Part shown: in pieces, positions 28,632 to 54,978 of the stretch
Layout of the letters: every line of letters starts with the position of its first letter
Position numbering within the stretch: the first letter of the stretch is position 1
From: Qipengyuania marincola
GTDB lineage: Bacteria; Pseudomonadota; Alphaproteobacteria; Sphingomonadales; Sphingomonadaceae
DNA: 64,000 nt
Direction of reading: 5' to 3'
Assembly (NCBI RefSeq): GCF_029688625.1
Contig: NZ_JARULC010000002.1
Location: 124,001 to 188,000, forward strand
Position numbers and translations under genes: made by a program
The notes under the pieces: model-generated
What the model was told of the DNA's origin: nothing
Database searches by the model: none
What the model saw: only the letters and a program-made list of their open reading frames with translations

Positions 28632-30419
28632 ATGAGGACTGATTCCAAGACAATGTTCGTTTCCGAAGTATCCCCTCGCGCGGGTTTCCGCGCGAAGGCA
28701 AGCCTGTGCTCGATCCTGGCACTCGCCGTCGCGTCTTGCGGTGGCGAGGACAAGGCGACCGTTTCGGCTCCCACGGTGGGAGTTGCAAGCCCCACACCCA
28801 GCCCGACGCCGACCCCCACTGCGACCGCGACGCCCACGCCGACGCCAACCCCCACGTCCAGTCCGACACCATCACCCACGCCCACTCCGACACCTACGCC
28901 GAAACCGTCGCCGACACCGACACCGACACCGACACCATCGCCGACACCGACACCGACACCGACGCCGGCACCGAGCCCGACGCCGTCACCGACGCCGACG
29001 CCGACGCCGACGCCGACATCGTCACAATACGATCCCTCGAAGCTTCCGAGCGGTGCCCAGCGGGCCTTTCCGACAGCCGAGGGGTTCGGAGCAAGCTCGG
29101 TTGGCGGACGCGGTGGAAAGGTCTTCCACGTGGTCAACCTCAACGACTCCGGCTCCGGCTCGCTGCGCGAATGCATGGAGGCGAGCGGCGCGCGGACCTG
29201 CATATTCCGGGTCGGCGGGACCATCGAACTGCTGTCGCAAATCAAGGTGACGTCGGGACAATTGACCGTCGCGGGTCAGACCGCACCGGGCGACGGTATC
29301 GCTTTGCGCAATTCGCCAAACAATCTGACGGGCTCCCCCATCTACCTCAATGCGCCGGACATCATCATCCGCCATATGCGCATTCGTCCAGGACCAACCT
29401 CGGGCGCGAAGCAGGATACGACCGACGCGATTACGGTCGATGGCAAAGCCAAGCGGACAATCATCGACCACGTATCCATGTCCTGGGCCACGGACGAAAT
29501 CTTCAATTCCACCAAGGCCGCCGAGGACGTCACCTTGCAGTGGTCGCTTGCATACGAGGGCCTGAGCAAGTCGACGCACAAACAGGGCGAGCATTCCAAG
29601 GGTGTGTTTGTCGAGGGAAGCCGCATTTCGCTGCACCACGTGCTGATCGCCCACGCCACCGATCGCATGCCCAATGCGGGCACGGGCGACAGGATCGATA
29701 TCGTCAACACGATTTCCTACGACATGCGCAGCAAGGCCCATCAGTATTTCTCGAATTTCCAGAAGCAGTCCGATCCCAACAGCGGCCTGACCCGCATGGC
29801 GAACATCGTCGGAAACTGGGTTTCCTTCGGCCCGAGCACAATCAACGGTTCGGAAATTTTCGGCGGGGATTACGACGAGAAATACTCGACCAATCCGGGC
29901 AATGCGGAGCTTTATCTCTACGCAAATATCGACGGCAGGCGGACCTCGTCATCCAAGCAACAGCGCGAATTCCTGGACCCCGACGATTGGAAATACGTCA
30001 AGTCGAGCGTCATTGGATCGCTTTCGGTGCAGCTGTTCACCGATGCTGCGCAAGCGGTGCGCGACGTGATGAAATACGCCGGCGCCTTCCCTCGCGACGC
30101 ATCGGACAAGCGTGCCGTGGCCAATTTTGCCGGGTGCAAGGGGGCCATCATCGACAGCCCGTCGCAGGTCGGCGGATGGCCGAGCCTTTCAAACGGGACG
30201 ACCTACGCCGATGCGGACAAGGATGGGATGGACGATGCCTGGGAGGCGGCTACCAGTCTGACCGATCCCAATGGGGATCACGACAAGGATGGCTACACCA
30301 ACCTCGAGGAGTTCCTGAACGAGCTTGCCGGTGACCAGGACCGTCCAGGCAATCTGATCAACCGCGTCGGCGCCGCCTCGGGCAGCGTCCCACAGGTGAA
30401 TTGCGGCTACAAGGTCTAG
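28632..30419 (+). CDS. Pectate-lyase-like beta-helix lipoprotein with Pro-Thr linker
   Basis: 595 residues from ATG 28632 (ATG 28653 is possible). A signal peptide ends in lipobox VASC (Cys36). A Pro-Thr/Ser linker fills residues ~54-129. The catalytic region begins [18 protein letters not shown], followed by [17 protein letters not shown] and [17 protein letters not shown] turns typical of right-handed beta-helix polysaccharide lyases of the PL1 type. Near the C-terminus DADKDGMDD and [13 protein letters not shown] look like thrombospondin-type-3/EF calcium loops. The likely role is cleaving or trimming the EPS made by the adjacent cluster at the outer membrane. It is a paralogue of the gene at 42273-43664. 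The stop overlaps the phosphoglycosyl transferase stop. Confidence 0.85.
28791..29019 (+). repeat. In-frame Pro-Thr/Ser microsatellite
   Basis: Degenerate hexamer repeats of the type ccgaca/ccgacg encode about 76 residues of almost pure PT, PS and PA dipeptides. Unit length six keeps the frame, so copy-number slippage would change linker length without breaking the protein. The antisense strand shows a matching Gly/Val/Asp frame that is not a gene. Confidence 0.92.
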
Positions 30420-31018
30420 CTGTTTGCCCGGTCGCTGGCCGAAGGACCGCCTGCGGCAATCGCGCTATTCGCGTGATGCCGCAGGCGTTCGCCCAGCACC
30501 ATGACGCCGATCGTGCGCGCAAGGATCGACGCGTCGAGCCGCGGCGAACGATGTTCGACGTACCACAGATCCAGGGCGATCTTGTCGTCGAGGTCGAGCA
30601 GGGTATTTCCGCTGATTTGGGAATAGCCCGTCAATCCGGGGCGCACTTCACAGCGCCTGCGCCCACGTTCGCCGAGATCGTGGATGGTTTCCGGCAACAA
30701 GGGCCGGGGGCCGATCCAGTTCATTTCGCCCCGCGCCACATTCCACAGGCCCGGCAATTCGTCGAGCCGGGACCGGCGGAGGAACGCCCCGATCGTCGTC
30801 GTCCGCTCGGCATCCGGCAAGAGGTGCCCTGCCTCGTCGCGCGCGTCCCGCATCGAGCGAAACTTGACGAGAGTGAAAGGCACGCCGTGCTGCCCTGAAC
30901 GCGCCTGGCGAAACAGGACTGGGCGGCCCTGTCCGACCAGAATGAAGCCCGCCAGCACTGCCAGCACGGGCGATGCGGCAAGCAGGGCGAGCGCAGCGGT
31001 AATTCGTCCAATGCGCAT
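30416..31018 (-). CDS. Bacterial sugar transferase (initiating phosphoglycosyl transferase)
   Basis: 200 residues, the minimal monotopic PGT core as in PglC. A single N-terminal hydrophobic helix ([20 protein letters not shown]) is followed by the signature FRQARSG and VKFRSM. The catalytic Asp86-Glu87 dyad lies in [10 protein letters not shown], then IGPRPLLPE and [12 protein letters not shown]. It transfers a sugar-1-phosphate from a UDP-sugar to undecaprenyl phosphate, starting EPS repeat-unit synthesis. It lacks the extra multi-helix domain of WbaP/WcaJ. With a 4,6-dehydratase/aminotransferase in the locus, a PglC-like diamino-sugar substrate is possible. Last gene of the BY-kinase operon. 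Confidence 0.9.
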
Positions 31019-31020
31019 GA

Positions 31021-53427: not shown

Positions 53428-54116
53428 CGGACATTTCGCCCCTCGACCACTTCGGGCGCATACTGGTTGTCGCGCCGCATCCCGATGACGAGGTACTGGG
53501 TTGTGGCGGAACCATCGCCCGCCTCCGCGACCATGGCCACGATGTGCACGTCGCTATCGTCACGACCGGCAAGCCACCGCAATTCCCGGCCGATCTGGTG
53601 ATGCAGATACGCAAGGAACTGGATGCCGCGCACGAGGTGCTGGGCGGAACCACCAAGCATTATCTCGATCTGCCGGCGGCGGCACTCGACACGATCGGTG
53701 CCGCTCAGATCAACGGTGCGGTGGCGGAAGTCGTGGCAAAGGTTAATCCCGATGCCGTCTTCGCGCCCTTTTTCGGCGACGTGCACGTTGATCACCAACT
53801 CGTCTTCAACGCCACCCTTGTCGCGTGCCGACCACGCTCTGCGGCAACGCCGCGCCTCGTCCTCGCATACGAGACGCTGTCGGAGACGAACTGGGCAGCT
53901 CCGCCGATCACGCCAGGGTTTCAGCCGAATGTCTTTGTAGACATCGGGGACACCCTGGAACGCAAGCTGGCGGCCTTCGCGAAATTCGAAAGCCAGGTGA
54001 AACCCTTCCCCGACGAGCGTTCGCTCGACACGATCAGAGCGCTTGCCCGCTTGCGCGGCTCGACCGTGTTCCGGCCGGCAGCCGAAGCGTTCATGCTGGT
54101 GCGCCAGATCGTTTAA
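53424..54116 (+). CDS. PIG-L-family deacetylase
   Basis: 230 residues from the ATG overlapping the formyltransferase stop (ATGA). The zinc motif PHPDDE (His19, Asp21/22) and the later HVDH (GDVHVDHQLVFNA) are those of LmbE/PIG-L GlcNAc deacetylases, which remove acetyl from N-acetylated sugars in free or lipid-linked form. In this operon it could expose an amine on the EPS sugar, perhaps before formylation or sulfation; this is inference. Cytoplasmic, no signal peptide. Confidence 0.88.
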   Translation: MTDISPLDHFGRILVVAPHPDDEVLGCGGTIARLRDHGHDVHVAIVTTGKPPQFPADLVMQIRKELDAAHEVLGGTTKHYLDLPAAALDTIGAAQINGAVAEVVAKVNPDAVFAPFFGDVHVDHQLVFNATLVACRPRSAATPRLVLAYETLSETNWAAPPITPGFQPNVFVDIGDTLERKLAAFAKFESQVKPFPDERSLDTIRALARLRGSTVFRPAAEAFMLVRQIV

Positions 54117-54264
54117 TCTGCGCGACGAAGGGTTGCCCCATTTTGGTACGCCATAATAGTTAGCGTTCGCATCGGACTCGACTCCCCAACTCCGTCGGTA
54201 TACCTAACCAATTATTGAATTCAGAGGTTGGTCGTTCCTTCGGGTCGAGACGGAGGACAACACG

Positions 54265-54978
54265 ATGCATTCTGAACAAGCTATACCGTTGGCGATCATC
54301 AGCCGGAATACTTTGGCACGAGAAGGTATGCGCCGCATCCTTCATGGTGAAACGTTCGAGGTCATAAAATCGAGCAATACAAGCTCGTTTCTTTCTGAAG
54401 AGAATGAAGACATCGCGCCGCGCATTGTCCTGCTGGACGAGAGCGACGAGTGCTGCGTGGCGACAGAAGTCGAGCAAATTCGCGAGCATTGCAGCGAAAC
54501 GCGAGTAGTCGTGCTGACCAACGAGTATGATTTCGACGCCATGGTCGAAGCGTTCCGGTCGGGCATTCACGGCTACATCGTGAAATCGATCGATTGCGAT
54601 CCGCTAATCGAGTCCCTGAAACTGGTGCACCTTGGCGAAAAGGTCATGCCGAGCGAACTGGCCAACCGGTTTCCGCAGCACTGGATCGATGAGAATTGTG
54701 CGACCAGTTCGCACAGCGATCTGCTGGACCTGTTGTCCGATCGCGAGCTCGAGACGCTGAGATTCCTGGTAGTGGGGGCGCCGAACAAGGTTATCGCGCG
54801 CAGTCTCGATATCAGCGAGGCGACCGTGAAGGTCCACGTAAAGGCGATACTCCGCAAACTGGACGTGCAGAATCGTACCCAGGCTGCGATCTGGGCAGTG
54901 CGCAACGGCATCAGCATGCAGCAGATGCCAGTCGACCAGCTGCCGAGCCCCGCGAGAGAGGAAACCGCGGCGGTCTGA
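54265..54978 (+). CDS. LuxR/NarL-type regulator with degenerate receiver
   Basis: 237 residues, preceded by GGAGGA. The N-terminal ~120 residues have the receiver fold: an Asp58 phosphoacceptor position (IVLLDES), Thr85 (VVVLTN) and Lys107 (YIVKS). The acidic pair that binds Mg2+ is replaced by Ser13-Arg14, so normal phosphorylation is doubtful. The LuxR HTH is at ~157-215 (LSDRELETLRFLVVGAPNKVIARSLDISEATVKVH). It is the last plus-strand gene of the EPS locus, 148 bases after the deacetylase, and probably regulates it. The receiver-coding half is AT-richer than surrounding genes. Confidence 0.85.
   Translation: MHSEQAIPLAIISRNTLAREGMRRILHGETFEVIKSSNTSSFLSEENEDIAPRIVLLDESDECCVATEVEQIREHCSETRVVVLTNEYDFDAMVEAFRSGIHGYIVKSIDCDPLIESLKLVHLGEKVMPSELANRFPQHWIDENCATSSHSDLLDLLSDRELETLRFLVVGAPNKVIARSLDISEATVKVHVKAILRKLDVQNRTQAAIWAVRNGISMQQMPVDQLPSPAREETAAV

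Follow-up and report, generated by a model that had tools for sequence, protein, structure and literature searches.

Loci of the Wzx/Wzy type that carry two sulfotransferases of distinct subfamilies have a described example in the synechan xss cluster of Synechocystis (PMC8205485). A locus likened to it by description was analyzed in Qipengyuania marincola, on a 64,000-nucleotide stretch of DNA (assembly GCF_029688625.1, contig NZ_JARULC010000002.1, positions 124,001 to 188,000; the window, in whose coordinates positions are given below), where profile searches identified the 22 genes at 28632-54978 as a full Wzx/Wzy-type polysaccharide locus. The xss cluster differs from it in its eight glycosyltransferases, in the sugars rhamnose, mannose, galactose and glucose, and in an OPX gene located elsewhere (PMC8205485). 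A sulfated polysaccharide of Alteromonas infernus is cited in a review (PMC4189415), and a study of exopolysaccharide clusters in Actinoplanes (PMC13390465) is possibly a further case; such reports weaken the exclusivity of sulfated exopolysaccharides to cyanobacteria.

VexL, which was compared along with the PfPL1 lyase, belongs to an ABC-transporter capsule system, unlike the lyases of the window. The Campylobacter pgl pathway (PglF-PglE-PglD-PglC) uses a dehydratase, an aminotransferase and a small phosphoglycosyl transferase (PGT) of the same families as those of the window; its product is a protein glycan, unlike the polymer proposed here. A scan of the 22 cluster proteins showed no acetyltransferase family, PglD-like or other; they include a formyltransferase homologue (FT) and a PIG-L de-N-acylase instead. 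In the ArnA-ArnC-ArnD pathway of 4-amino-arabinose, a formyl step by ArnA, the nearest fold to FT, is followed by de-acylation by ArnD, and FT followed by PIG-L would parallel this order. The window differs from that pathway in the sugar and the carrier step, in having PIG-L rather than ArnD, and in an FT that lacks the Asn and Ser of ArnA. Among alphaproteobacteria, Mesorhizobium loti reportedly has a sulfated surface polysaccharide, a nodPQ-dependent sulfated capsule involving KpsS.

The data suggest that the Q. marincola locus is an island, probably exchanged horizontally, and that it is likely to make and export a sulfated amino-sugar polysaccharide via Wzx/Wzy. Gene content, gene families, kept motifs, co-inheritance and island edges can be read from the DNA itself. 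All classes listed in a preliminary description of this compact locus were recovered by family searches: an initiating PGT, four family 4 glycosyltransferases (GT4a-d), Wzx, Wzy, Wzz/BY-kinase, a Wza-like lipoprotein and a barrel, and, likewise among the 22 genes, two sulfotransferases (ST1 and ST2), a 4,6-dehydratase (DH46), an aminotransferase (AT), FT, a deacetylase (PIG-L), an ATP-grasp enzyme, two lyase-like proteins (PLa and PLb) and a regulator. A calcineurin-like metallophosphoesterase (MPE) had been overlooked. The PGT, Wzx, Wzy, Wzz-type co-polymerase and OPX occur together, with Wzy just under its Pfam cut-off. The sulfated, amino-sugar-containing polymer proposed in that description is well supported by homology to PglF/WlaL, Pcryo_0638 and PglC, by motifs for 3'-phosphoadenosine-5'-phosphosulfate (PAPS) in both sulfotransferases and by an adenosine-5'-phosphosulfate (APS) kinase in the genome.

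The window was compared by blastn with the region between a penicillin-binding protein gene and dnaA in five genomes of the same genus (G331, G304, G312, G078 and G299). The site was empty in the first four, with alignments ending at 28376-28445 and restarting at 55148-55157, while G299 contained all 22 genes at the same site and in unchanged order, with protein identities of 78-99%; the locus is therefore a discrete 26.7-kb island. With dnaA (56461-57945) lying directly past its end, the insertion site is placed in the interval from the penicillin-binding protein gene to the dnaA region. The window and G299 were 90.5% identical across 28951-44808 and 84.7% identical across 44809-57946, compared to 79.9% (24639-28855) and 80.8% (58377-62671) in the near flanks; the terminal 0.9 kb (63098-64000) was 92.0% identical to G299 and equally high in the island-free G331. 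The higher identity of the island than of its flanks is compatible with, though no proof of, exchange between lineages. No direct repeat of 9 bases or more was common to 28351-28550 and 55051-55250, and the repeat scan reported none inside either junction. When 28300-48000 was scanned for promoters and terminators, the signal was no higher than in shuffled sequence. An FT homologue was present in 8 of the 41 sampled genomes of the genus, including G304, which is empty at this site and has the homologue elsewhere, and in 22 of 298 genomes of the family (E < 1e-70).

To place the locus in a wider range, 84,980 species genomes were scanned with FT, yielding at least 515 confirmed relatives. The best 80 loci were kept, a set that leans to close relatives; counts over them are lower bounds, since no flank extended beyond 10 kb and some contigs ended sooner, and their glycosyltransferase and SDR labels are best-match labels at E 1e-8. 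Within 10 kb of FT were found GT4d (73 loci), dehydratase (69), PIG-L (68), aminotransferase (64), ST2 (57), OPX (52), PGT (46) and barrel (45). FT, dehydratase, aminotransferase and PIG-L occurred together in 63 of the 80 loci, and with ST2 added in 53; at least one of ST1 and ST2 was present in 62, and CysN/C-like and CysD genes lay inside seven. At E 1e-75, a class-wide sample of 385 genomes from 277 genera yielded FT only in the window's own genome (1/385). Close relatives of FT are thus uncommon across the class as a whole; rhizobial relatives (44-47% identity) could escape this sample because the threshold was strict and 277 genera were spanned.

A counterpart was located on pSymB of Sinorhizobium meliloti ml47 (CP140955, 915-946 kb), where 17 of 24 genes matched window proteins (blastp, E 1e-5): ST1, ST2, AT, FT, PIG-L, dehydratase, PGT, Wza, Wzx, Wzy, Wzz, a lyase, SDR, ATP-grasp and three glycosyltransferases, one of them weak (57 bits). 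The seven without a match encode a third sulfotransferase, an ATP-binding protein, a calcium-binding protein, a PHP-domain protein that occupies the place of MPE, and cysQ, nodQ and cysD, the final three of the 24. Its OPX has 416 amino acids compared to 191 in the window, and none of the 24 genes matched the BBP2 barrel. In strain 1021, approximately 9.8 kb separate the starts of the FT and ST2 homologues. FT was found in 100 plasmid records (73 from Sinorhizobium) and ST2 in 97 (75 from Sinorhizobium). The ST2 homologue matched in two pieces in S. meliloti RCAM1750 (L201, 4273-5075) and CP050561, and in one piece in most of the other strains listed.

The combination of genes, recorded in the preliminary description as unusual, is thus recurrent though patchy: the label is not supported, given the five-gene set shared by 53 of the 80 loci and the S. 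meliloti counterpart, which carries PAPS-supply genes. A combination unique to Erythrobacteraceae was ruled out by the FT loci of the wider genome collection and by the S. meliloti plasmids. The statement that no described polymer matches held within the open-access literature searched, which is its scope: neither a polymer structure matching the locus nor a description of the polymer of the pSymB region was found there. The earlier interpretation is partly supported, right in kind, wrong on rarity and uncertain on the formyl group. The data indicate that loci of this kind form a large family in Alphaproteobacteria, in which some members carry PAPS genes of their own and one copy resides in a genetically tractable symbiont, S. 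meliloti, so that the question of a non-cyanobacterial sulfated exopolysaccharide becomes directly testable.

The genes for the initiating sugar were assigned by homology and kept residues, the latter counted over homologues from the fetched loci only, at identity limits of 30-40% by gene. DH46 is a PglF-type dehydratase by its match to WlaL/PglF; Asp462, Lys463, Met471 and Lys475 were kept in 79 of 79 homologues and Thr461 in 78. Asp462, Lys463, Met471 and Thr461 correspond to positions with functional roles in PglF. The top PDB match of AT was Pcryo_0638 (7l7x), which acts on UDP-4-keto-6-deoxy-GlcNAc en route to 2,4-diacetamido-2,4,6-trideoxyglucose, and AT retains all five residues that Pcryo_0638, PglE and DesI have in common (PMC8040287). 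The PGT was closest to an N,N'-diacetylbacillosaminyl-1-phosphate transferase (8e37, 122 bits), with Asp86 in 58/58 homologues and Glu87 in 56/58. On the simplest reading, the first sugar would be of the bacillosamine type.

Both sulfotransferases have the features of PAPS-dependent enzymes. ST1, SULT-like in the PDB comparison, carries PKSGRTW, His99 and RDPRD, with Lys37, Gly39, Arg40, Thr41, Trp42 and His99 present in all 11 homologues and Ser38 in 10 of them; Lys18, Glu40 and Arg100 of ST2 were found in 66 of 66. The conserved residues presumably represent PAPS-loop and catalytic positions. The first PDB match of ST2 was 3rnl (107 bits), named merely 'sulfotransferase', followed by heparan sulfate 3-OST-3 (83 bits); the 13 matches after 3rnl were all heparan sulfate 3-O- and N-sulfotransferases. 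ST2 may therefore be likened, by resemblance only, to heparan sulfate sulfotransferases acting on glycan glucosamine. Approximately 86 kb separate the APS kinase gene from the island, and a search of the genome yielded no PF00884 sulfatase. Co-inheritance was scored in the same 298 family genomes, with FT at E < 1e-70 (a gap extends from 1.4e-71 to 1.9e-41) and ST2 and PIG-L at E 1e-40. ST2 was present in 17 of the 22 genomes with FT compared to 1 of the 276 without (Fisher p 2e-22), and PIG-L in 20 of 22 compared to 1 of 276 (p 7e-28), both p values uncorrected for kinship. Three more sulfotransferase-family matches were observed in long frames outside the island (G000:C3:822700, C2:47185 and C3:719422).

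The OPX gene overlaps the gene of the BBP2_2 barrel on the same strand, and no Wza_C domain was found in the 191-residue OPX by profile search. A short OPX that has no outer-membrane-spanning domain thus stands beside a barrel gene, the arrangement of composite OPX/beta-barrel translocons, in which a short OPX interacts with a separate, 18-stranded barrel (PMC9601211, PMC9603273); the two proteins are likely an exporter pair. PLa and PLb are homologous to each other and were classed as lyase homologues with a PL1-type right-handed beta-helix; in the modelled domain, Arg206 was invariant in 35 sequences. In PLa, the lipobox is joined to the lyase domain by a Pro/Thr-rich linker, which is encoded by a hexanucleotide/30-bp repeat at 28803-29025. 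This linker may vary, because the alignment of the G299 homologue begins only at residue 131.

A pathway can be proposed in which the substrates, step order, sulfate positions, lyase activity, regulation and the functions of SDR, ATP-grasp and MPE are predicted. DH46 would convert UDP-GlcNAc to a 4-keto-6-deoxy sugar, and AT would convert the ketone to a 4-amine, a bacillosamine precursor. FT would then acylate this amine, most likely with a formyl group, in place of the PglD acetyltransferase, the PGT would transfer the sugar-phosphate onto undecaprenyl phosphate, and PIG-L would free an amine by removing either the 2-N-acetyl or the 4-N-formyl group. The repeat unit would be assembled by the four GT4 enzymes and sulfated by ST1 and ST2 using PAPS. 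Wzx would flip the unit, Wzy would polymerize it and Wzz-BY-kinase would set the length, with export through the short OPX and the BBP2 barrel, trimming or release by PLa and PLb, and control of the locus by the LuxR-type regulator.

Several observations weigh against this pathway. The PAPS genes lie outside the window, one genome (G102) has its ST2 homologue away from its cluster, and in 18 of the best 80 FT loci, some of them short, no homologue of either ST1 or ST2 was seen; sulfation is thus perhaps not a universal trait. PL1 lyases require uronic acid in their substrate, yet the island showed no gene for making uronate; two UDP-sugar dehydrogenase genes scored above cut-off elsewhere in the genome. 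Two further PGT genes are also present elsewhere, and other polymers are therefore probably made too. AT has Thr (72 of 74 homologues) at the position of Pcryo_0638 Gln183, which touches the 2-acetamido group of the substrate (PMC8040287; numbering offset of 4 assigned here). In FT, the Asn-His-Ser-Asp set of the ArnA active site is incomplete: Gly103 replaces Asn in all 93 homologues with 40% identity or more, and Ala107 replaces Ser in 89 of them. The Asn, an active-site residue of ArnA, was placed opposite Gly103 by the FT-ArnA alignment and is also present in five aligned Fmt-like sequences.

The same locus could thus make a sulfated polymer whose first sugar is unformylated, with FT being another acyl or one-carbon enzyme or a hydrolase; we regard this as possible, though doubtful. 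It is favored by the two replacements, as the His-Ser-Asp triad is highly conserved among enzymes using formyl-tetrahydrofolate; HypX, a variant that also lacks the Ser, is nevertheless a proposed user of this cofactor (PMC6802093). His105 and Asp141 were invariant in the 93 homologues, and the model of FT (pLDDT 92.7) had a two-domain formyltransferase fold with ArnA as the top Foldseek match (TM 0.84). Formylation by FT, unproven and placed in doubt by the loss of two active-site residues in the clade, is somewhat more probable than its absence. The database name 'methionyl-tRNA formyltransferase' conceals this altered active site. At 33-36% identity, a remoter FT group (L051, L052 and L090, L091; G047, G058) shares the Gly in place of Asn and likewise adjoins PGT and PIG-L homologues.

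That the sulfotransferases modify a lipid, lipopolysaccharide or protein while the exported amino-sugar polysaccharide is non-sulfated seems quite unlikely. ST1 is of the broad SULT type and the loci without either homologue fit such a role, but in 53 of the 80 loci ST2 and AT share a strand and are no more than 200 bp apart, the 13 PDB matches of ST2 after 3rnl are heparan sulfate sulfotransferases, and PAPS genes occur inside some FT loci. O-antigens and capsules are likewise made with PglC-type starters, Wzx and Wzy, and the product might be one of these, cell-bound rather than a released exopolysaccharide. We consider this unlikely, because the Wzz-BY-kinase fusion with adjoining OPX and barrel forms an export set for secreted polysaccharides (PMC9601211). 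A decayed or silent island without a product would agree with the patchiness in the genus, but is very improbable: all 22 genes are open reading frames, the catalytic residues checked were kept in seven of them, and the identity of 28951-44808 between two lineages, above that of the flanks, points to exchange and use.

Within the favored reading of a sulfated amino-sugar polysaccharide, a more specific scheme is that FT caps the sugar amine, the PGT loads it, PIG-L uncaps it and ST2 N-sulfates it, giving a heparin-like polymer; this is a long shot. In its favor, FT and PIG-L homologues adjoined on the same strand in 67 of the 80 loci, with the PGT as well in 31, and ST2 stood next to AT in 53. 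PIG-L without ST2 in several loci (e.g., L107, L108, L137-L139, L152 and L153) counts against it. If true, a widespread alphaproteobacterial gene family, including the S. meliloti pSymB locus, would produce an N-sulfated, heparin-like polysaccharide.

Table. Features of the island in window coordinates, with predicted products and the matches that support them.
Feature	Position	Strand	Basis
Whole island	28446..55147	.	DNA absent at site in 4/5 same-genus genomes (blastn)
PLa, secreted lipoprotein-like PL1-type lyase homologue; Pro/Thr repeat linker, C-terminal DxDxDG repeats	28632..30419	+	NCBIfam PelZ 128 bits, under cut-off 840; homologue of PLb
PGT, small monotopic, PglC-like	30416..31018	-	PF02397 170.6 bits; 200 amino acids
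SDR, NAD-dependent epimerase/reductase	31021..31923	-	PF01370 87 bits; NCBIfam matches all under cut-off
ATP-grasp ligase, carbamoyl phosphate synthase-like	31923..32918	-	NF009402 361 bits, above cut-off 218
MPE, calcineurin-like	32915..33640	-	PF00149 50 bits (longer open reading frame); no NCBIfam match
Wzz polysaccharide co-polymerase fused to BY-kinase	33660..36104	-	PF02706 36 bits and CbiA; TIGR01005 under cut-off
GT4a glycosyltransferase	36226..37326	-	PF00534 106 bits (longer open reading frame)
ST1, SULT-type sulfotransferase with PKSGRTW PAPS loop	37323..38192	-	PF00685 83 bits
GT4b glycosyltransferase	38189..39358	-	PF00534 127 bits
Wzx flippase	39355..40725	-	PF13440 64.7 bits
Wzy polymerase (O-antigen ligase/polymerase family)	40718..42103	-	PF04932 28.3 bits, slightly under cut-off 31.7; homologues in related clusters
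PLb, PL1-type right-handed beta-helix lyase homologue	42153..43664	+	
GT4c glycosyltransferase	43671..44870	+	PF00534 79 bits
Outer-membrane beta-barrel BBP2_2, likely barrel half of exporter	44867..46111	-	PF10082 118 bits
Short OPX (Wza-like) lipoprotein, 191 amino acids, Poly_export and SLBB	46102..46677	-	sole matches PF02563, PF10531, PF22461
ST2, heparan sulfate 3-O/N-sulfotransferase-type	46726..47583	-	PF13469 56 bits
AT, DegT-type sugar 4-aminotransferase	47580..48824	-	365 bits to 7l7x
DH46, PglF/WlaL-like membrane 4,6-dehydratase	48824..50920	-	251 bits to WlaL 5bju
GT4d glycosyltransferase	51276..52517	+	PF13692 103 bits; glycosyltransferase most often with FT
FT, ArnA-fold formyltransferase homologue without usual Asn and Ser	52522..53427	+	structure model, Foldseek
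PIG-L de-N-acylase	53424..54116	+	PF02585 89 bits (longer open reading frame); His19, Asp21, Asp22, Glu23, His121, Asp123 and His124 in 73/73 homologues
LuxR-type response regulator	54265..54978	+	PF00196 69 bits; PF00072 right at cut-off

The genes for SDR, ATP-grasp and phosphoesterase form a recurring trio (31021-33640 in the window and 34364-37034 in L205). Its third member is a metallophosphoesterase in the window and in G251 and a PHP-domain protein in S. meliloti.

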